Positions 34,671 through 61,259 are shown, counted from the stretch's first letter. The stretch: DNA of 64,000 nt from Rhodoferax sp. (GCF_018780565.1 NZ_JADMJN010000002.1:496001-560000), one strand, 5' to 3'. Notes: generated by a model not told the origin, from the letters alone. Program-made: numbers and translations.

Positions 34671-35323
<653 letters not shown>

Positions 35324-35327
<4 letters not shown>

Positions 35328-36073
35328 GATCGGAACAGTCGTGAGTATTGAACTTCATGCTGGGCACTCAGGATGGCCAGCATGGGGGAAAAGGCCTGGC
35401 GCTCGCTCTCCCTCATGGCCAGGGCGTGCGCCACAGCAGCAGGAATTTCAGCGGTCAGGGCCGACAGGATGCGTTGCCCGGCGCTCTGCCCCAGTGGCAC
35501 TGACTTGATGGCCGCCTGCACCATGTTTTCAGCCCAGCCGAAAGCGTAGGTCAGCAAACAATCGTGCAGGGTAGCCTGGCAGGCGCTGGCCGCCAGGGCA
35601 AAAGCCACGGGGTAGGTGGGCTGCAGGACCGCTAGCACTTGGATTTGCTCTGGCCTGGCGGTGGTGTGGTTGCGCAGCCACTCCAGCAGGGAGCGACCCA
35701 TTTGTTCGGCCTGTGCCCGCAATTCGCTGCTTTCGCGGGTTTGCAGCACCCAGGCGTTGAGTTCCTGAATACGGTCATGGTCACCCCGCTGCCAGGCCGG
35801 CACGGCCTTGGCCAGAACCGCCAGATCGCTGCGCGCCAAACTCAGGTGCAACTGATCCAGCAGCCAGTCAGATGCTTCTGATTCTGTAGCTACATGTCCT
35901 TTATCCACGGAGGATTCAAGGCATTCCGAGTAAGAAAATCCGCCAATGGGAAGGGCTGGTGAGGCCAGCCACATGAGCTGCATCAGGCTGGTGCCGCTGC
36001 GTACCTCGGGCTCAGTGCGACGTCGGCGAATACCGCTGCGCAGATTGCGTTGCATGGCGCCGGGGTGATGCAT
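35324..36073 (-). CDS. ureF: Urease accessory protein UreF
   Basis: All-helical partner of UreG and UreD in the apo-urease activation complex. The 249-residue protein has [25 protein letters not shown] and later [28 protein letters not shown], both family marks. The first ~25 residues ([24 protein letters not shown]) are an Arg-rich extension, so the true start may be a little downstream. Its start overlaps the ureE stop by one base, and it overlaps ureG by 4 bp. Confidence 0.92.
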
Positions 36074-36579
36074 CAGTGGGAGTGACCGTGACCGTGGGCG
36101 TGGGCGTGGTCGTGACTGTGGCCAGAGGACGCGTAAGCGCCACCCTCCGGCTCAAACGCCTCAGTGGCTTCACGCACGGTCAAGTGCATGGCGCGCAGCA
36201 TATCGGCCAGCACATGGTCGGGCTCGATTTTCAGATGATCGGGTTTGAGTTCGATAGGCACATGCCGGTTGCCCAGGTGGTAGGCGGCGCGGATCAGGTC
36301 GAATGAACTGCCGTGTTCGGTGCAGGCCGTGATCACCAGCACCGGCTGTGCAGCAGCCAGCACCTTGATCAGTGAGCCGTCTTCGGCAACCAGCACATCG
36401 CCACCACGCACCACGGTACCACGCGGCAGGAAGATGCCCAGGGTACGCCCCATCGAGTCGGTGGCGTCAAAGCGGCTTTTCTGGCGCACGTCCCAGTCCA
36501 GTTCGATGCTGGATGCGCGTTTGACCAGCACCGGGGCCAGTCCGGCGCCTTGCGACATGAGTTTGGAGATTTGGAGCAT
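36073..36579 (-). CDS. ureE: Urease nickel metallochaperone UreE
   Basis: Dimeric nickel carrier of 168 residues. The peptide-binding N-domain starts [13 protein letters not shown], the metal-binding domain has [21 protein letters not shown] with the interface His, and the tail [17 protein letters not shown] is a nickel-binding His run. It shares one base (TGATG) with the ureC stop. Confidence 0.95.
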
Positions 36580-38321
36580 CAGAACAAAAAGTAACGTTGT
36601 GTCAGGGGCAGACTGACAGCGGGCTCGCAGGTCAGCAACTGGCCGTCGGCACGCACGGTGTAAGTCTGGGCGTCGATTTCCATTTTAGGCAGGTAGCTGT
36701 TGTGCACCATGTGCTGCTTGCGCACGCCCCGGATGTTCTTGACCGCACTCAGTGGTTTGGCCAAACCAAAGCGCTCTTTGATGCCGGCGTTCAGCCCCGC
36801 CTGCGATACAAAGGTCAGCGAGCCCCGCGCCAGTGCGCCACCGTAGGCGCCAAACATGGGGCGGTAATGCACCGGTTGCGGCGTGGGGATGGAGGCGTTA
36901 GGGTCGCCCATGGCGGCCATGGCGATGAAGCCACCTTTCAGAATCAGAGCCGGTTTGACACCAAAGAAAGCCGGCTTCCAGACCACGAGATCAGCCCACT
37001 TGCCGACCTCAATGCTGCCGACCTCATGGCTGATGCCGTGGGCAAGGGCCGGGTTGATGGTGTACTTGGCCACATAACGCTTGACGCGGAAGTTGTCGTT
37101 GCGGGCGTTGTCTTCGGAAAGCTTGCCACGCTGCGCTTTCATCTTGTGAGCCGTCTGCCAGGTGCGAAGGATCACCTCGCCAACGCGCCCCATGGCCTGG
37201 CTGTCGCTGCTCATCATGCTGATGGCGCCCATGTCGTGAAGCACGTCTTCGGCGGCAATGGTTTCCTTGCGGATGCGGCTTTCGGCAAACGCCAGGTCTT
37301 CGGCAATGGCCGGGTCCAGGTGATGGCACACCATGAGCATGTCCACGTGCTCGTCAAGCGTATTCACCGTGTAGGGCATGGTGGGGTTGGTGGAACTGGG
37401 CAGGAAGTTGTCATGCCCCACCACCCGCAAAATATCAGGCGCGTGACCACCGCCCGCGCCTTCGGTGTGGAAGGCACACAGTGTGCGGCCCTTGGTGGCC
37501 GCAATCGTGTTTTCCACAAAGCCTGACTCGTTGAGCGTGTCAGAGTGGATGGCGACCTGCACGTCAGCCACTTCCGCCACGTCCAGACAGTTACTGATGG
37601 CTGCTGGCGTGGTGCCCCAGTCTTCGTGAAGCTTGAGGCCGATCACGCCCGCATTGACCTGCTCGTGCAATGCGCCGGGCAGGCTGGCATTGCCTTTGCC
37701 GAGAAACCCCAGGTTCATGGGGAAGGCGTCGGCGGCCTGCAGCATGCGCTCGATGTTCCAGGGTCCGGGCGTGCAGGTGGTGGCAAAGGTGCCGGTGGCC
37801 GGGCCGGTGCCGCCGCCCAGCATGGTGGTGACACCGCTGGCCAGAGCCTCTTCGATTTGCTGCGGGCAGATGAAATGGATGTGCGAGTCGATGCCCCCCG
37901 CTGTGACAATGTTGCCTTCGCAGCTGATGACTTCGGTGCCGGGGCCGATGACGATGTCCACGCCGGGTTGGGTGTCGGGGTTGCCGGCCTTGCCGATGGC
38001 CACGATACGTCCGCCCTTGAGGCCAATGTCCGCCTTAACGATGCCCCAGTGGTCCAGAATCAGCGCGTTGGTCATCACGCAGTCCACTGCGCCTGCGGCC
38101 TGCGGGCCGGTGCCCGAGCCATCGCGGGTGCGCTGGGATTGCGCCATGCCGTCGCGAATGGTCTTCCCGCCACCGAATTTGACTTCTTCGCCGTACCCGC
38201 CAGCAGCCAGGGTGAAGTCTTGCTCCACCTCGATCAGCAGGTCGGTATCAGCGAGTCGTACGCGGTCGCCCGTGGTGGGGCCAAAAATCTCGGCGTAGGC
38301 GCGTCGTCCAATCGTTGCCAT
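36579..38321 (-). CDS. ureC: Urease alpha (catalytic) subunit UreC
   Basis: Hydrolyses urea to ammonia and carbamate at a di-nickel site. The nickel ligands and the carbamylated Lys are seen: [26 protein letters not shown] (Lys), and [16 protein letters not shown]; the mobile flap is in [21 protein letters not shown]. At 580 residues it is about ten longer than typical, owing to an insertion after IRDGMAQSQ ([16 protein letters not shown]). ATG 38321 lies one base past the ureB stop; the frame continues upstream but there overlaps ureB. Confidence 0.97.
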
Positions 38322-38322
38322 G

Positions 38323-38652
38323 TCAAAGCGCTCCCTTGACGCTTGCGTCAATATGTCCGTTGGTGAGGCCGCGAAATCCGTAGACGGCGCGGTCGCCTGA
38401 ATAGTCCACGAGTTCCACCGTGCGTTGCTGTCCCGGCTCGAACCGCACGGCCGAACCTGATGCAATGTTCAGGCGCATGCCCAGGGCCATGGCCCGGTCA
38501 AAGCCGAGAGCGCCGTTGGTCTCGGCAAAGTGATAGTGGGAGCCCACCTGGATCGGGCGGTCTGCGGTGTTTTTGACCACCAGCGTCAGGGTGCGTCGCC
38601 CGGGATTGAGGGCGTGTTCGCCCTCATCGGTGATGATTTCGCCGGGGGTCAT
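38323..38652 (-). CDS. ureB: Urease beta subunit UreB
   Basis: Structural subunit of 109 residues, starting [19 protein letters not shown], with [18 protein letters not shown] and the C-terminal [16 protein letters not shown]. Separate beta and gamma subunits are the usual state in proteobacteria. Its start follows the small membrane protein gene by 7 bp. Confidence 0.96.
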
Positions 38653-38659
38653 GACCGTC

Positions 38660-38845
38660 TCACTTGCCGTTGTGCGACAGCCAGATGGCCAGCGCAATCA
38701 TGCCGCCCACCGTCACAAAGCCCCATACGTCCGTGGCGTGCCAATGGGTGTCTGTCATCCCATGCCCGTCATGGGAAAATGCGGTACTGGCCCCCGTCGT
38801 TACTGCGACAGTAGCTATCATTTTAAGAGCATTTTTGATTTTCAT
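38660..38845 (-). CDS. Small His-rich membrane protein in the urease operon
   Basis: A 61-residue protein between ureA and ure[25 protein letters not shown] looks like a signal peptide, [16 protein letters not shown] is a short His/Asp-rich segment, and [17 protein letters not shown] is one transmembrane helix. It has the features of a small exported protein that could bind nickel or another metal at the membrane. I recall an orf in this position in other Comamonadaceae urease loci but know no function. Copy 6 of the 17-nt repeat encodes ALKMIA in its N-terminus. Confidence 0.75.
38814..38830 (+). repeat. 17-nt GCTAT/AGAGC repeat, copy 6
   Basis: GCTATCATTTTAAGAGC within the N-terminal coding part of the small membrane protein; read on the gene strand it gives A-L-K-M-I-A. 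Confidence 0.5.
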
Positions 38846-38879: not shown

Positions 38880-39182
38880 TCAGACGATCGGCTGGTGCAC
38901 CGTCACCAGCTTGGTGCCATCGGGAAAGGTGGCTTCTACCTGGATGTCGGGAATCATCTCGGCAATGCCGTCCATCACGTCGGCGCGGGTCAGGATGGTG
39001 CGGCCCTCGCTCATGAGCTGGGCCACGGTCTTGCCGTCACGCGCGCCTTCCATCACGGCGGCACTGATCAGTGCCAGTGCTTCCGGATAGTTGAGCTTGA
39101 GGCCGCGCGCTTTGCGACGCTCGGCCAGCAAGCCGGCGGTGAAAATCAGCAGCTTGTCTTTTTCGCGGGGTGTGAGTTCCAT
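38880..39182 (-). CDS. ureA: Urease gamma subunit UreA
   Basis: Structural subunit of exactly 100 residues: [35 protein letters not shown] in outline, then [17 protein letters not shown] and the C-terminal [17 protein letters not shown] 39182 gives the family length; ATG 39194 in frame is possible but overlaps a promoter-like element. It is the first gene of the operon; ureD, often upstream, is not here. Confidence 0.96.
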
Positions 39183-39194
39183 ACGCTCATCCAT

Positions 39195-39208
39195 GCAAAT
39201 CCCGTGCC
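39195..39208 (-). promoter_or_regulatory. Sigma54-like promoter facing ureA
   Basis: On the minus strand CGGCAC-N5-TTGCAT, with GG and GC exactly 10 nt apart, close to the TGGCAC-N5-TTGCA consensus. The predicted transcription start would fall about one base before the ureA ATG, giving an almost leaderless message, which is a reason for caution. Confidence 0.45.
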
Positions 39209-39210
39209 GT

Positions 39211-39224
39211 GGCATGAAACCTGC
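39211..39224 (+). promoter_or_regulatory. Sigma54-like promoter facing the permease-kinase gene
   Basis: TGGCAT-N5-CTGCA on the plus strand, GG and GC 10 nt apart, back to back with the ureA element and two bases from it. The implied transcription start coincides with the proposed GTG start of the next gene. Confidence 0.35.
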
Positions 39225-39235
39225 ACCATAAAGGT

Positions 39236-42200
39236 GTGACTTCAGATGCCAAACCACCGTCCCCACCCGAAGCGGTCCAGCGCATCACGCTGGTCCGGCG
39301 TGATTACAACGCCTGGGTGGCGAGTGAAACCATGGAAGATTACGCACTGCGTTTCGCTCCGCAGCGTTTTCGCAAATGGTCTGAGTGGCGGGTGGCCAAC
39401 ACCGCATTCGGCGCGGCGTCCTTCCTGATTCTGGAAGCCGTGGGTGCCACGCTGCTGGTGCAGTACGGCTTTACCAACGCGTTTTGGGCCATCCTGGCCA
39501 CCGGGCTGATTATTTTTCTGGCCGGCCTGCCCATTAGCATCTACGCGGCCCGCTACGGGGTGGATATGGATTTGCTCACTCGTGGCGCGGGTTTTGGCTA
39601 CATCGGCTCCACGCTTACCTCGCTCATCTACGCCTCGTTCACATTCATCTTCTTTGCGCTGGAGGCCGCTGTCATGGCCTATGCGCTGGAGCTTGCCCTG
39701 GGCATTCCCCCAAGCTGGGGCTACCTGCTGTGTGCCCTGGTGGTGATTCCCCTGGTGACCTTTGGCGTGTCGACCATCAGTCGCCTGCAAGTGTGGACCC
39801 AGCCGCTTTGGCTGCTCATGCTGGTGGTGCCCTATGTGTATGTCTTTGTGCTCGATCCCGGTGCGTTCTCGGGCGTTGTGCACTACAAAGGGGAAAGAGG
39901 TGTTGATCCGGGCTTCAGTTTGCCCTTGTTTGGTGCAGCGCTGACCGTCGGCATTGCCCTGATGACGCAAATGGGCGAGCAGGCTGATTTCCTGCGCTTC
40001 ATGCCCGTCAAGACGGCCTCCAACAAGGCGCGCTGGTGGTTGGGGGTGCTGGTGGGGGGGCCGGGCTGGGTCGTGCTGGGCGTGCTCAAGATGCTCGGCG
40101 GCGCTTTGCTGGCGTTCCTGGCCATCAGTCACGCCGTGCCCACGGATCGGGCGGTGGACCCGAATCAGATGTACCTGGCGGCCTATGAGTATGTGTTTCC
40201 CAAATATGGCTGGGCCGTGGCCGCCACTGCGCTGTTCGTGGTGATCTCCCAGGTCAAGATCAACGTGACCAATGCCTATGCCGGGTCGCTGGCCTGGTCC
40301 AACTTTTTCTCGCGGCTCACGCACAGCCATCCGGGCCGGGTGGTGTGGGTGGTGTTCAACACCCTGATTGCTTTCATGTTGATGGAGATGAATGTGTTCC
40401 AGGCGCTGGGGGATGTGCTGGGTTTGTATTCCAACATTGCCATTGCCTGGATGATGGCGGTGGTGGCAGACCTGGTCATCAACAAGCCGCTGGGTCTGTC
40501 GCCGCCGGGCATCGAGTTCAAGCGTGCCCATTTGTACGACATCAATCCTGTGGGTGTGGGGGCCATGGCGCTCGCATCCGTGCTGTCGGTCACAGCGCAT
40601 CTGGGACTGTTTGGTGCCACGGCGCAGGCTTTTTCGGCGCTGATTGCACTGGGTACGGCCTTCGTCACCTCGCCGTTGATTGCTTGGGCCACCAAAGGCA
40701 AGTACTACATCGCACGAACCAGCGAAGTGAAGGTCAAGTACTGTGTGATTTGCGAGCGTGAGTACGAAGGGCCTGACATGGCGCACTGCCCGGCTTACCA
40801 GGGCCCCATCTGCTCGCTGTGCTGTACGCTGGATGCCCGCTGTGGCGATCTTTGCAAGCCACACGCCAACCTGGCCTCGCAGTGGACGTCCACTTTGCGC
40901 TGGCTGCTGCCCAGACCCTGCTGGCCGTATCTGGATACCGGGTTGGGTTATTTCCTGCTGCTGATGCTGGTGATTGGGCCGCTGCTCGCCAGTGTGTTCG
41001 GTCTGCTGTATCACCAGGAGCTCAACGCGCTGGTGCGCACGGTTGCAGATTTTGAAATGTTGCAGGCCCCCCAGTCCGCGCTGCGTTCGGGCTTTCTCAA
41101 GGCCTACATGGCTTTGCTGGTGATTGCCGGGCTCGTGGCATGGTGGGTGGTTCTGGCGCACAAGAGCCGCCAGGTGGCCCAGGAGGAATCAAACCGCCAA
41201 ACCAATTTGCTGATGCATGAGATCGAGTCGCACCGCCAGACCGACCAGGCCTTGCAGTCCGCCAAGCTGGTGGCAGAGCAGGCCAGAAAAGCCGCCGACC
41301 ACGCCAACCAGGCCAAGAGCCGCTACATCAGTGCCATCAGCCACGAATTGCGCACGCCACTCAACAGCATCCTGGGTTATGCGCAGTTGATGGGGGAAGA
41401 CGCCTCCATTCCGGCGCATCGCAAGCAGGCGGTCAGCGTCATCAAGCGCGGGGGGGAGCATTTGCTCTCGCTGATCGAAGGCACGCTGGATATCGCCCAC
41501 ATCGAGAGCGGCAAGCTCACCCTCAATGTGCGCCCGATGCCCTTCGCCGAATTTGTGCAGGAGATCGCCAGCATGTTTGAGCTTGAAGCCCATGCCAAGG
41601 GCCTGGTCTTTCACTATGCCGAGGAAGGTTCCCTGCCGGCCGTGGTGCGCGCCGACGAAAAGCGGGTGCGTCAGATCCTGATCAACCTGCTGGGCAACGC
41701 CATCAAGTTCACGACGCAGGGGCAGGTGACGTTTCGCATTCGTTACGCGCGCGAGATGGCCGCCATCGAGATTGAAGACACCGGGCCGGGTCTTTCCACC
41801 CAGGAGCACGAGCGAATTTTTGAGCCCTTTACGCGGGCCAACACGCCAGGTACCACGGCGCCGGGCTCGGGTCTGGGATTGACCATTGCCAAAATGCTCA
41901 CCGACCTGATGGGTGGGCAACTGAGCGTGACCGGCACACCGGGCGTGGGCTCGGTGTTCAAGGTGAAGCTGTTTTTGCCCGAGGTGCATGTGGCGTCCGG
42001 TCCCTTGTCGGGGCGCTCGCCGGCTTCTGCACGCCCGTCCCGCCACGGCTATGCCGGCGTGCGCCGGCGCGTGCTGGTGGTGGACAACGAGGAGGCCGAC
42101 CGTGAGCTGCTGGTGAACCTGTTGCAGCCGCTTGGCTTTGAGCTGCGAACCGCGGCCAGCGGCCATGATTGCCTGGACTTGATCGCCAGCGGCTACCAGC

Positions 42201-42688
42201 CCGACGTCATCTTCATGGACCTGGCCATGCCCGGCATTGATGGCTGGGAGACGATCCGCCGTTTGCGCGTGCTGGCGCCCGCTCGAGCGCAGGCGGTGGC
42301 CATCGTATCGGCCAATGCATTTGACAAGGGCCTGGAGAATGATGTGGGCATTCCGGGTGAGGACTTCATCTTGAAGCCGGTACGCCACTCCGAACTTCTG
42401 GATTGGCTGACGCTGCGACTGTCGCTTGTCTGGACGGAAACCGCCCGCCCCGCGGCAGCTGTCGATGCGCCGGTGATGGATCTGGTGCTGCCAGCCAAGT
42501 CCCACCTGGATGGCTTGCGCGAGCTGGTGAGTCTGGGCTATTACCGGGGCATCATGAACAAGCTGGACGAAATTGAAGCGGCGCAGCCGACAAGCGCAGC
42601 CTTTGTGGCGCAGATGCGCGGCCTGGCGCGTCAGTTTCAATTTGAAGCCATGGGCCAGCAATTGAGCGAGAAGTCCAATGAAAACTGA
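39236..42688 (+). CDS. NCS1-type permease fused to hybrid histidine kinase
   Basis: An 1150-residue membrane protein. Residues ~15-490 are a complete NCS1 (purine/cytosine/allantoin-type) permease: [38 protein letters not shown], then about 12 hydrophobic helices. At ~503-545 lies a Cys-rich segment ([33 protein letters not shown]) that looks zinc-binding, followed by two more helices and a coiled coil. The kinase has His703 in [15 protein letters not shown], an ATPase domain ([28 protein letters not shown]) and a receiver with Asp995 in [11 protein letters not shown]. Start is GTG 39236. It probably senses a urea-related or nucleobase ligand and signals to the next gene's product. Confidence 0.88.
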
Positions 42689-43664
42689 GTCGTCGAATCC
42701 GCAACTGGACCAGACCTTGGACCGCGCCAACAGCGACGTCGTGCTGATTGTGGATGACGTGCCCGACAACCTGTCGGTGCTGCATGACGCGCTGGACGAG
42801 TCGGGCTATACGGTGCTGGTGGCCACCCATGGCGAGGCGGCGCTGCAGCGCGCTGCACAGGCCTTGCCGGACATTGTGTTGCTGGACGCCATGATGCCCG
42901 GCATGGATGGCTTTGAAGTCGCCCGGCGCCTCAAGGCCTCGCCCGCCACGGCGCACATTCCCATCATCTTCATGACCGGCCTGACCGAGACTGAGTACCT
43001 GGTGGCAGCGCTGGAATCCGGCGGTGTGGACTACGTGACCAAGCCCATCAAACCCAAGGAAGTCCTGGCGCGTATCAGTGTGCACCTGCAGGGTGCTCGT
43101 GAAAAGCGCCAGGCCCGCAACGCGCTGGATGCCTTTGGCTATGCCAGCATCACCGTGCGGGTGAGCGATGGCCGCCTGATGTGGCAAACCCCGCTGGCGC
43201 GTGAACTCCTGTTGCGCTACTACGGGACCGAGGCCCCGCACATGCCCGAGCTGGTGCTCAAGTGGCTGCGCCGCCATGTGGTGGAGGCCGCCGCGCTGGC
43301 CGAGCCTCCGCGCCTGAGCATCGAGCAGGGCTCCAAGCGATTGACGTTTCGGCTGCACCAGCAAATTGGCGACAGTGAGGGTGGCGGTGACTGGCTCATC
43401 ATCATGCGCGAGGAGTCGGACGAGAGCGTCATTGAGGCCATCGCCTTGAGCTTCAAGCTCACCCCGCGTGAGGCCGAGGTTTTGTACTGGGTGGTCAAGG
43501 GCAAGATCAACCGCGACATCGGCGATATTCTGGGCTCAAGCCCCATGACCGTGAAAAAGCATCTGGAGCGCGTGTTCGCCAAACTCGGGGTAGAGACGCG
43601 AACGGCCGCTGCGGGCATGGCCATGAGCCGCATCCGGCAGCTGCATCCGCAGTTCGAGGGCTGA
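42678..43664 (+). CDS. LuxR/NarL-type response regulator
   Basis: A 328-residue DNA-binding response regulator. The receiver has Asp70 in DIVLLDAMMPGMDG and Lys in DYVTKPIKPKE. A middle region (residues ~140-250) with no domain I know separates it from the C-terminal helix-turn-helix KLTPREAEVLYWVVKGKIN...SSPMTVKKHLERVFAKLG. Its start overlaps the kinase gene by 11 bp. It is the likely output of that kinase; the divergent urease operon is the obvious candidate target. Confidence 0.9.
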   Translation: MKTESSNPQLDQTLDRANSDVVLIVDDVPDNLSVLHDALDESGYTVLVATHGEAALQRAAQALPDIVLLDAMMPGMDGFEVARRLKASPATAHIPIIFMTGLTETEYLVAALESGGVDYVTKPIKPKEVLARISVHLQGAREKRQARNALDAFGYASITVRVSDGRLMWQTPLARELLLRYYGTEAPHMPELVLKWLRRHVVEAAALAEPPRLSIEQGSKRLTFRLHQQIGDSEGGGDWLIIMREESDESVIEAIALSFKLTPREAEVLYWVVKGKINRDIGDILGSSPMTVKKHLERVFAKLGVETRTAAAGMAMSRIRQLHPQFEG

Positions 43665-53543: not shown

Positions 53544-53559
53544 TTGGCACATTCTTTGC
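53544..53559 (+). promoter_or_regulatory. Sigma54-like promoter upstream of the allophanate hydrolase operon
   Basis: TTGGCAC-N5-TTGC, with GG and GC 10 nt apart, matches the sigma54 consensus almost completely. The predicted transcription start (about 53571) is 23 bp before ATG 53594 and falls in the palindrome that follows. Confidence 0.72.
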
Positions 53560-53564
53560 GTTAG

Positions 53565-53580
53565 ATCTTGTATACAAGAT
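53565..53580. promoter_or_regulatory. 16-bp perfect palindrome, candidate GntR-type operator
   Basis: ATCTTGTATACAAGAT lies 6 nt after the sigma54 -12 GC and is centred on the predicted start of transcription. TTGTATACAA cores are typical of GntR-family operators. A near copy sits at the same distance from the other sigma54 site, at 60058-60073. Confidence 0.65.
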
Positions 53581-53593
53581 TGGATGCTTTGAA

Positions 53594-55282
53594 ATGGTGC
53601 ATACACAATTCCCCGCTGCCGGCCTGGCGCCACAAGCCTGGATATCGCAGTTTTCCGAGCCACTGGTCCTCAATGCCGCTGGCCCTCTTGCGGGCATGCG
53701 CTTCGCGGTCAAGGACAATATGGACGCCAGGGGCCTGCCGACCACGGCTGCCTGCCCGGCTTTTGGCCACATGCCCGAGGCGCATGCCAGCGTGGTGCAA
53801 AAGCTGCTCCAGGCTGGTGCGTCTCTGTTAGGCAAGACCAACCTGGATCAGTTCGCCTGCGGGCTCAATGGCACACGCTCTCCCTATGGCGCTGTGCCCA
53901 ATGCCTTCCATGCGGACTATGTGTCTGGCGGTTCCAGCTCGGGCTCGGCCTACGTGGTGGCGACGGGGCAGGCGGATTTTTCTCTGGGCACCGATACCGC
54001 CGGCTCGGGACGCGTGCCGGCCGGCTTGAACAACATCGTGGGCTTCAAGCCCAGCAAAGGCTTGATCAGCACGCGTGGCGTGTTGCCGGCGGCGCAAAGC
54101 GTGGATTGCATCTCGATCTTTGCGCGCACGGTGGATGTTGCCGCCAGAGTGCTGCAGGCCGCCATGGGGCATGACCCGCTGGACCCTTACTCACGCAAGC
54201 TCAAGCTTTTGAGCACGCCTTGGTCGGGACGCTTTCGCTTTGGTGTGCCGTCCATCCTGGAGTTCTTTGGCGATGCTGCATCCGAAGCCGCGTTTGCCCA
54301 GGCGCTTGCACGGCTCAAGGAGATGGGCGGAACGCCTGTGACCATTGATTACACGCCGCTGGCCCAGGCTGCTTCGCTCTTGTATGAGAGTGCATTGGTG
54401 GCAGAACGCTATGCCGCCATTCGTGCCTTTTTTGACGCGCATGAAGACCAGGTGATGGAGCCCGTGCGAAGCATCATTGCCAAAGGCCGGGACTACAGTG
54501 CTGCCGATCTGTACGAGGCGCAGACCCGGCTGGCGGCGCTCAATCAGCAGGTTGCTGCCATGTGGGAGGGCATTGACTTCCTGCTGGTGCCAACAGCACC
54601 CACGCACTACACCATTGCGCAGATGCAGGCGGACCCTGTTTTGCTCAATCGCAACCTGGGCGCGTACACCAATTTTGTCAACCTGCTGGACTATGCCGCC
54701 ATTTCGGTGCCCAGCTCGATCCGTGCCGACGGTTTGCCATTTGGCATTACCTTCATTGGTCCTTGCGCAAGTGATTGGCAGTTGGCCGAAATCGGGCAGC
54801 GCTATCACCATGCCTGCGGACTGACGCAAGGCGCCTTGGGCACACCCATGCCAGCGCCGCAGCCCTTGCCCGGCATTGCTAAGGAAAGCTCTCGCATGCG
54901 CTTGGCAGTGGTCGGTGCACATCTCTCAGGCATGCCGCTGAACGGCCAGCTGATCGAGCGCGGCGCCCGCTTGCTCAAGTCCACCACCACCGCCACGCGC
55001 TATCGCTTGTATGCATTGCCGGGAACAGTCCCCCCCAAGCCTGGCCTGCGCAGAGTGGCCGACGCAGGTGCCGCCATCGCACTGGAGGTGTGGGAGATGC
55101 CGCAGGAGCATGTTGGAAGCTTTCTTGCGCTCATCCCTGCGCCATTGGGGTTGGGCAATGTGGAGTTGGCCGACGGTAGCTGGGTGACCGGCTTCATCTG
55201 CGAAGGCCATGCCCTGGACAGTGCGCAAGACGTGACGCCACATGGTGGCTGGCGTGCCTACATCGGCTCGCTATCCAAATGA
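53594..55282 (+). CDS. atzF: Allophanate hydrolase
   Basis: Hydrolyses allophanate to ammonia and carbon dioxide, the last step of biuret and cyanurate degradation. The 562-residue protein has an amidase-signature domain with the Ser-cisSer-Lys triad: Lys40 in FAVKDNMDARG, VSGGSSSGSAYVVA, and DTAGSGRVPAGL. A second C-terminal domain from ~residue 430 (MRLAVVGAHLSGMPLN) and the size distinguish AtzF from ordinary amidases; urea carboxylase is not fused. It leads a co-directional operon with the ABC genes and atzGEH. The ribosome site is weak. Confidence 0.92.
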   Translation: MVHTQFPAAGLAPQAWISQFSEPLVLNAAGPLAGMRFAVKDNMDARGLPTTAACPAFGHMPEAHASVVQKLLQAGASLLGKTNLDQFACGLNGTRSPYGAVPNAFHADYVSGGSSSGSAYVVATGQADFSLGTDTAGSGRVPAGLNNIVGFKPSKGLISTRGVLPAAQSVDCISIFARTVDVAARVLQAAMGHDPLDPYSRKLKLLSTPWSGRFRFGVPSILEFFGDAASEAAFAQALARLKEMGGTPVTIDYTPLAQAASLLYESALVAERYAAIRAFFDAHEDQVMEPVRSIIAKGRDYSAADLYEAQTRLAALNQQVAAMWEGIDFLLVPTAPTHYTIAQMQADPVLLNRNLGAYTNFVNLLDYAAISVPSSIRADGLPFGITFIGPCASDWQLAEIGQRYHHACGLTQGALGTPMPAPQPLPGIAKESSRMRLAVVGAHLSGMPLNGQLIERGARLLKSTTTATRYRLYALPGTVPPKPGLRRVADAGAAIALEVWEMPQEHVGSFLALIPAPLGLGNVELADGSWVTGFICEGHALDSAQDVTPHGGWRAYIGSLSK

Positions 55283-60037: not shown

Positions 60038-60053
60038 CGGCACACATATTGCA
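60038..60053 (+). promoter_or_regulatory. Sigma54-like promoter upstream of the BMP transporter operon
   Basis: CGGCAC-N5-TTGCA, GG and GC 10 nt apart. The predicted start (about 60064) is 77 bp before ATG 60141 and falls in the palindrome-like element that follows. Confidence 0.68.
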
Positions 60054-60057
60054 TCCA

Positions 60058-60073
60058 TTCTTGAATACAAGAT
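60058..60073. promoter_or_regulatory. Second CTTGAATACAAG operator-like element
   Basis: TTCTTGAATACAAGAT differs from the 53565-53580 palindrome at two positions and lies at the same 6-nt distance from its sigma54 -12 box. Confidence 0.62.
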
Positions 60074-60140
60074 GGGTTTCTGCAAATCTGCACCATCTTG
60101 ACGCAATTCATCCACTGTCCTGATCCTCGGAGAACCTAAC

Positions 60141-61259
60141 ATGAGCCTGAGTAAATTGAACCGTCGTGACACCCTCAAATCCCTGGCTGCGATCGGCGCC
60201 GCGGGTACGCTGGGTGCCTGGAGCCAACACGCGCTGGCTCAAAAGCCATTAACGGTTGGCATCATCTACGTGGGCCCACGCGATGACTACGGCTACAACC
60301 AGGCACAGGCGCAGGCGGCCGCCGAAATCAAGAAGATGCCCGGCGTGAAAGTGGTGGAAGAAGAAAACGTGCCAGAGACCGCCGCCGTCCAGAAAACCAT
60401 GACCGGCATGATCATGCAGGACGGCGCCGCCTTGGTGATACCGACCTCTTATGGTTACTTCGATCCGCACATTCTGGCCCTTGCGCCCAAGCACCCCACG
60501 GTGCGTTTCGGTCACTGCGGTGGCTTGTGGACCGAAGGCAAGCATCCCAAGAATGTGGGCAGCTTCTTTGGCTACATCGACGAATGCCAGTACCTCAATG
60601 GCGTGATTGCCGGGCACATGAGCAAGAGCGGCAAGATCGGTTTTGTGGCGGCCAAGCCGATCCCTCAAGTGCTGCGCAACATCAACGCCTTTCTGCTGGG
60701 TGCGCGCTCGGTCAAGCCGGGCATTACCTGCAGCGTGATCTTTACCGGTGAGTGGTCCATGGCCATCAAGGAGGCCGAGGCCACCAACAGTCTGGCCGAC
60801 CAGGGGGTGGATGTGTTCACCATGCACGTGGATGGCCCCAAGGTGATTGTGGAGACGGCGGCCAAGCGCGGCAAAATGGTCTGTGGTTACCACGCCAGCC
60901 AAGCCAAACTCGCACCTCAGGCTTACCTGACCGGTGCCGAGTGGAACTGGACCACCGCCTACAAAACCCTGATCGAAGCCGCACAGTCGGGCAAGCCGCA
61001 TCCCAACTTCATCCGTGGCGGTTTGAAAGACGGTTACGTGAAAACGTCGCCTTATGGTGCCATGGTGAGCGATGCCGCCAAGAAAGACGCAGAGGGCATC
61101 AAGGCCAAGATGATGTCAGGCACCTTCGATATTTTCAAGGGCCCGATCAAGGACAACAAAGGCAACGTCGTCATTGCCGCGGGCAAGAGCTACAAGCAAA
61201 CGGATCTTGCGCTGGAAGGCATGAACTACCTGGTTGAAGGCGTGATCGGCTCCGTCTAA
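60141..61259 (+). CDS. BMP-family ABC transporter substrate-binding protein
   Basis: A 372-residue binding protein with a twin-arginine-like signal (NRRDTLKSLAAIGAAGTLGAWSQHALA). The mature sequence KPLTVGIIYVGPRDDYGYNQAQ and later CGYHASQAKLAPQAYLTG fit the Bmp/Med family, known for nucleosides and purines. GGAG precedes the start by about 10 bp. In this setting the ligand may be a urea-like or cyclic ureide compound, which is inference. Confidence 0.9.
   Translation: MSLSKLNRRDTLKSLAAIGAAGTLGAWSQHALAQKPLTVGIIYVGPRDDYGYNQAQAQAAAEIKKMPGVKVVEEENVPETAAVQKTMTGMIMQDGAALVIPTSYGYFDPHILALAPKHPTVRFGHCGGLWTEGKHPKNVGSFFGYIDECQYLNGVIAGHMSKSGKIGFVAAKPIPQVLRNINAFLLGARSVKPGITCSVIFTGEWSMAIKEAEATNSLADQGVDVFTMHVDGPKVIVETAAKRGKMVCGYHASQAKLAPQAYLTGAEWNWTTAYKTLIEAAQSGKPHPNFIRGGLKDGYVKTSPYGAMVSDAAKKDAEGIKAKMMSGTFDIFKGPIKDNKGNVVIAAGKSYKQTDLALEGMNYLVEGVIGSV

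Follow-up and report, generated by a model that had tools for sequence, protein, structure and literature searches.

A histidine kinase fused to an NCS1-like permease and divergent from urease in Rhodoferax sp.: a candidate sensor of urea and short-chain amides

CbrA of Pseudomonas is an SLC5-STAC histidine kinase (PMC13022988). CrbS/CrbR and RpuS/RpuR are SLC5-STAC kinase systems for acetate and pyruvate use. Ks-Amt5, a sensor kinase for ammonium from an anammox bacterium, is reported to have lost transport (PMC5764959). The fmdCABDEF cluster of Methylophilus methylotrophus encodes a formamidase and an amide/urea ABC transporter, and is induced by formamide and urea and repressed by ammonia; the review describing it names no two-component system for the cluster (PMC10781810). 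No report of an NCS1-kinase fusion, or of a urea-sensing kinase of such a type, was found in the open-access literature.

The window, a stretch of 64,000 nucleotides from Rhodoferax sp. (GCF_018780565.1, NZ_JADMJN010000002.1:496001-560000), contains a kinase-regulator gene pair that can be compared with these systems. The features of the pair are as follows.

39236-42688, + strand: fused NCS1-like permease, Cys-rich tail, two TM helices and hybrid histidine kinase; 1150 aa, start codon uncertain
39341-40705, + strand: permease domain of predicted NCS1 fold, aa ~36-490, 12 TM (AlphaFold2 model)
40742-40855, + strand: Cys-rich tail, aa 503-540 (CxxC ... CSLCC ... C...C), putative zinc site (Cys conservation)
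40940-41155, + strand: two additional TM helices, aa ~569-640, running into a coiled coil (model secondary structure; sequence)
41312-41512, + strand: HisKA, aa 693-759 (Pfam)
41654-41977, + strand: HATPase_c, aa 807-914 (Pfam)
42071-42403, + strand: receiver (Response_reg) of the hybrid kinase, aa 946-1056 (Pfam)
42678-43664, + strand: response regulator, REC and GerE (LuxR-type HTH), 328 aa (open frame; Pfam)

The original prediction had described an 1150-residue fusion in which a permease is followed by two more membrane helices, a histidine kinase and a receiver, with an overlapping LuxR-type regulator downstream. This layout was confirmed by the open frame, Pfam and the structure model. 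The kinase gene is a single open frame with a GTG start, and the regulator gene overlaps it by 11 nt. The HisKA, HATPase_c and receiver domains lie in one chain and all scored over their Pfam cut-offs, which makes the protein a hybrid histidine kinase; the H, N and G boxes and the receiver Asp are visible in its sequence. The partner has Response_reg at residues 22-133 and GerE at residues 261-315 and is a NarL/LuxR-type response regulator. The start codon of the kinase is uncertain because conservation starts near residue 15 and the GTG nearly coincides with a predicted sigma-54 start site. The fused architecture recurred in approximately one-eighth of the sampled Pseudomonadota genomes, indicating that it is not a product of chance, and the REC-LuxR partner was kept at 52 of the 56 fused loci of the phylum sample. 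In public annotation, homologues of the fused kinase are called "ATP-binding protein" or even "ArcB".

The predicted resemblance to CbrA was supported. Both proteins join a LeuT-fold transporter to a histidine kinase, both concern a nutrient nitrogen or carbon compound, and both have a sigma-54 link (PMC13022988). However, the transporter is SLC5 in CbrA and NCS1-like here, and CbrA has STAC and PAS domains, whereas the window protein has the Cys-rich tail, two TM helices and a coiled coil. The window kinase also has a receiver of its own, and its partner is LuxR-type, in contrast to the sigma-54 activator CbrB. CrbS/CrbR and RpuS/RpuR are likewise transporter-kinase fusions controlling nutrient-use genes, but with SLC5 and STAC and for other nutrients. 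In Ks-Amt5, a transporter module joined to HisKA has also become the sensor of a nitrogen compound (PMC5764959); it belongs to the Amt/Rh family, and neither a hybrid receiver nor a Cys tail is described for it. The NCS1-kinase system is a widespread, and apparently undescribed, form of transporter-kinase fusion.

The permease part (aa ~36-490) had no direct Pfam match, even at E=10, and PF02133 matched neither the window protein nor either copy in the source genome. Searches of this part against NCBIfam and PDB sequences gave no transporter assignment, and no solved NCS1 was matched by simple sequence search. With the first 500 residues lacking a Pfam or PDB sequence match, NCS1 identity is not derivable from sequence alone. 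An AlphaFold2 model of residues 1-690 (mean pLDDT 79.8) has 12 membrane helices in the permease part. The top match of the model in the PDB was CodB (Z 34.5, 393 aligned, 3.2 A); Mhp1 scored Z 29.4, and none of the remaining LeuT-fold families exceeded about Z 24, with SSS (SLC5) structures at about Z 22. The window protein also had no SSS Pfam match, and its transporter domain was not classed as SLC5. Locus L130 encodes a stand-alone relative with 46% identity, which scored 32.0 for PF02133 against a cut-off of 23.5. Because of the fold match and this relative, the NCS1 permease of the original prediction was retained, and the domain is treated here as NCS1-like, in a divergent branch. A profile comparison with CodB gave an E value of 1e-4 but a probability of only 57%. 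CodB and Mhp1 resemble the window protein in the fold of aa 36-490 and in TM3 and TM6 motifs (e.g., ADFVRF/ADFLRF, common to CodB and the window protein), but have no kinase and no Cys tail. Comparison of the only PF02133 protein of the source genome (L166) with the alignment of relatives found nothing.

In CodB, the substrate is sandwiched by the aromatic pair Trp108 and Phe204 (PMC9379551). By sequence alignment only, F139 and L242 take these places in the window protein, which would leave a planar base without a full aromatic sandwich. The invariant E143 aligned with Mhp1 Gln121 (mapping made here; residue roles from PMC9379551). At the Na2 site (TM1/TM8), gap placement in TM8 is ambiguous, and the invariant K341 could fall at or near the site; the mapping of sodium-site residues on CodB was indecisive because this gap placement decides it. 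A comparison of three stand-alone permeases gave 199 invariant core positions, of which the window protein retains 155. The fused domain shows consistent TM1 changes relative to the stand-alone permeases, e.g., at positions 62, 63 and 66. By analogy with Ks-Amt5, these changes could mark a carrier turned receptor.

The Cys-rich tail has the pattern C503-x2-C506 ... C518 ... C526-x2-C529-C530 ... C536 ... C540. The cluster lies on the cytosolic side and is nearly invariant in about 31 relatives (alignment of 30-31 sequences). The Cys segment noted in the original prediction is real, but it did not arise with the fusion: one stand-alone permease (L115) terminates in the same motif and another (L130) retains its CxxC...CSLC half, and a fusion-specific linker was rejected on these grounds. 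In a Tsukamurella relative the tail is degenerate and the zinc ligands are lost. After the tail, the model has two extra helices (569-603 and 610 to ~640) and then a coiled coil, which together bring the chain back to the cytosol. Pfam gave no match over cut-off in aa 501-700, and a STAC domain was not recognised there; in the model, this region holds the Cys tail, the two membrane helices and the coiled coil.

The predicted location divergent from urease was likewise confirmed. The features on the other side of the kinase start, including the intergenic elements, are as follows.

39210-39225, + strand: sigma-54-type -24/-12 element TGGCATGAAACCTGCA toward the kinase, score 10/12, abutting the element toward ureA
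39194-39209, - strand: sigma-54-type -24/-12 element CGGCACGGGATTTGCA toward ureA, score 11/12
38880-39182, - strand: ureA (urease gamma), divergent neighbour
38323-38652, - strand: ureB (urease beta)
36579-38321, - strand: ureC (urease alpha), inferred ATG at 38321
34671-36579, - strand: ureE, ureF and ureG accessory genes

The interval between ureA and ureB (38660-38845, - strand) encodes a peptide of 61 aa that contains His and probably has one membrane helix; in relatives, the gap at this place is often larger or is occupied by a HupE/UreJ gene. The sole UreD match of the genome is outside the urease operon, about 73 kb from ureA on the same contig (G000:C14:608417-609022).

One sigma-54-type element per direction (score of at least 9/12) was found in 62 of the 65 intergenic regions between the kinase and ureA, compared with a chance level of 1.15 from random fragments of the same loci. 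The window and the loci served as the basis for this background estimate. The divergent pair suggests nitrogen limitation as the control, and judging from these elements nitrogen status probably also controls the kinase-ureA locus. When the region was searched by word counts for a conserved site of regulator binding, the output consisted chiefly of these same sigma-54 elements. RpoN and NtrC are both encoded in the source genome. The paralogue described below has a similar element 83 nt upstream of its conserved RREYN, and several alphaproteobacteria have similar elements at matching places. If both abutting elements are used, two polymerases could hardly occupy them at once. The predicted start sites lie about 2 nt or less from the GTG and ATG start codons, indicating either very short leaders or misplaced starts. 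A LuxR-type regulator alone cannot activate or open sigma-54 promoters. Elsewhere in the window, an allophanate hydrolase gene and a PnrA/BMP-type ABC transporter operon are preceded by sigma-54-like elements, TGGCACATTCTTTGCG and CGGCACACATATTGCA (53545-55282 and 60038-61259). This hints that the regulon for nitrogen scavenging may be wider and include amidases and isochorismatase-family hydrolases.

Among 80 close orthologue loci from the genome collection, ureA was divergent from the kinase at 70. Six of the remaining 10 have a contig end within 260 bases of the kinase; the other four are L050, L057, L061 and L083. A kinase serving a urease-free urea pathway in L050, L061 and L083 was considered and dropped, since those genomes have ureC elsewhere. 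In a phylum sample of 398 Pseudomonadota genomes, 55 gave matches, a few of them fragments. The original prediction was open to refutation by homologues placed at random beside unrelated genes, which was mostly not the case: 54 of the 56 fused kinases in this sample had urease, urtABCDE or fmdA genes no more than about 10 kb away, and both exceptions were at contig ends. Most relatives had urt-fmd neighbours with urease absent within 10 kb. This pairing of a formamidase with an amide/urea ABC transporter recalls fmdCABDEF (PMC10781810). The class-level sample, which includes many incomplete genomes, was weaker; about 13 of its 19 fused loci were urea/amide-linked and about 6 (L114, L120, L123, L126, L128 and L129) had no such genes in reach.

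The source genome encodes a paralogue, 52% identical and with its own LuxR-type regulator, that is divergent from urtABCDE, fmdA and fmdB; FmdA and a periplasmic binding protein were confirmed there by Pfam. Both family members of this genome adjoin urea/amide genes, and the other kinases matched in the same search lie elsewhere. In the permease-domain tree, the neighbour type switches repeatedly among ure, urt and fmd, and most lineages keep neighbours of the urea/amide kind. The kinase and regulator genes on Klebsiella plasmids lie opposite urtABCDE and amiF; the latter encodes a formamidase from a different protein family and takes the place of fmdA. The common denominator of the neighbourhoods is urea and small amides.

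These results point to the gene pair being a two-component system in which a transporter-like receptor ("transceptor") senses urea, short-chain amides such as formamide, or both, a reading to which we assign a probability of roughly 0.6. Nitrogen limitation, through NtrC and sigma-54, would turn on the kinase and ureA. Binding or passage of the ligand in the NCS1 domain would then shift the helix pair and coiled coil and alter kinase activity, and the phosphorylated LuxR-type regulator would raise or tune the adjacent urea/amide genes. The original prediction had also listed purine, allantoin and hydantoin as ligands. The ligand could be one of these or cytosine, acting upstream of urea with urease as one downstream target, since the ligands known for NCS1 proteins include nucleobases, hydantoins, allantoin and, more recently, metformin (PMC13390362). 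We consider this unlikely, given the apparently incomplete sandwich for a planar base and the neighbours. The UrtABCDE transporter and formamidases are known for urea and small amides. Because urtABCDE and formamidase genes, rather than purine genes, are the commonest neighbours, the urea-like part of the list fits better than the other three compounds, and short-chain amides were added to it.

It is improbable that the kinase uses the Cys-rich tail to read an internal signal or one of metal or redox state, such as nickel or zinc supply for urease, with the permease as a passive membrane anchor or independent transporter. The near-invariant cytosolic-side cluster, the nickel requirement of urease and the NicO nickel transporter gene after the stand-alone permease in L130 would agree with such a role. 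However, most relatives lie by urt-fmd genes without urease in reach, and the tail is shared with permeases that have no kinase and has lost its zinc ligands in Tsukamurella. The retained core positions would also suit a fused permease that is a urea/amide uptake carrier only, sharing a protein with a kinase that separately reports nitrogen status. This arrangement appears rather improbable, as urt urea ABC transporters are usually adjacent, so that uptake is already provided, and Ks-Amt5 shows that a fusion can lose transport while it still senses (PMC5764959). Synteny among close orthologues comes from common descent, and the neighbourhood might be inherited linkage without functional meaning. 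We regard this as very improbable: two paralogues of one genome sit at two different urea/amide loci, copies occur on plasmids and in another phylum, and the repeated switches of neighbour type within the same function favour a shared function over linkage.

The wider proposal is that Pseudomonadota widely use NCS1-type transceptor kinases as membrane sensors dedicated to urea and short-chain amides. These kinases would act with sigma-54/NtrC to gate the operons for urease and amide uptake, as an AND gate that requires both ligand and nitrogen hunger, and a family of stand-alone NCS1 permeases for urea and amides would be their relatives. We hold the chances of this proposal to be evenly balanced. 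If true, a membrane receptor reading urea or formamide directly would explain how substrate induces urease and amide-uptake operons in much of the Pseudomonadota, and a further transporter family beside SLC5 and Amt would have been turned into kinase sensors. Such sensor copies would also be present on conjugative Klebsiella plasmids. A kinase homologue was found in 340 Klebsiella plasmid records; on IncFIB/IncFII conjugative plasmids such as L205 (CP024500.1, 2879-13234), the homologous kinase-regulator pair is divergent from urtABCDE-amiF, and an acetamidase locus lies close by.

The natural stand-alone relatives permit a direct comparison of carrier and receptor. In L130, the stand-alone permease is the last gene of the urease operon and is followed by the NicO-type gene (L130:8082-10710), and in L115 it precedes fmdA-fmdB. 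The actinobacterial permease of the same branch from Tsukamurella (L207:6947-8635) is annotated "hypothetical protein", has lost most of the tail Cys and adjoins a zinc-ribbon gene and fmdA. Two further loci (L148:9501-12155 and L155:9665-12346) encode the same NCS1-Cys-2TM front on a HisKA kinase without a receiver; a separate REC-HisKA-HATPase protein is encoded next door, and fmdA-fmdB are nearby.
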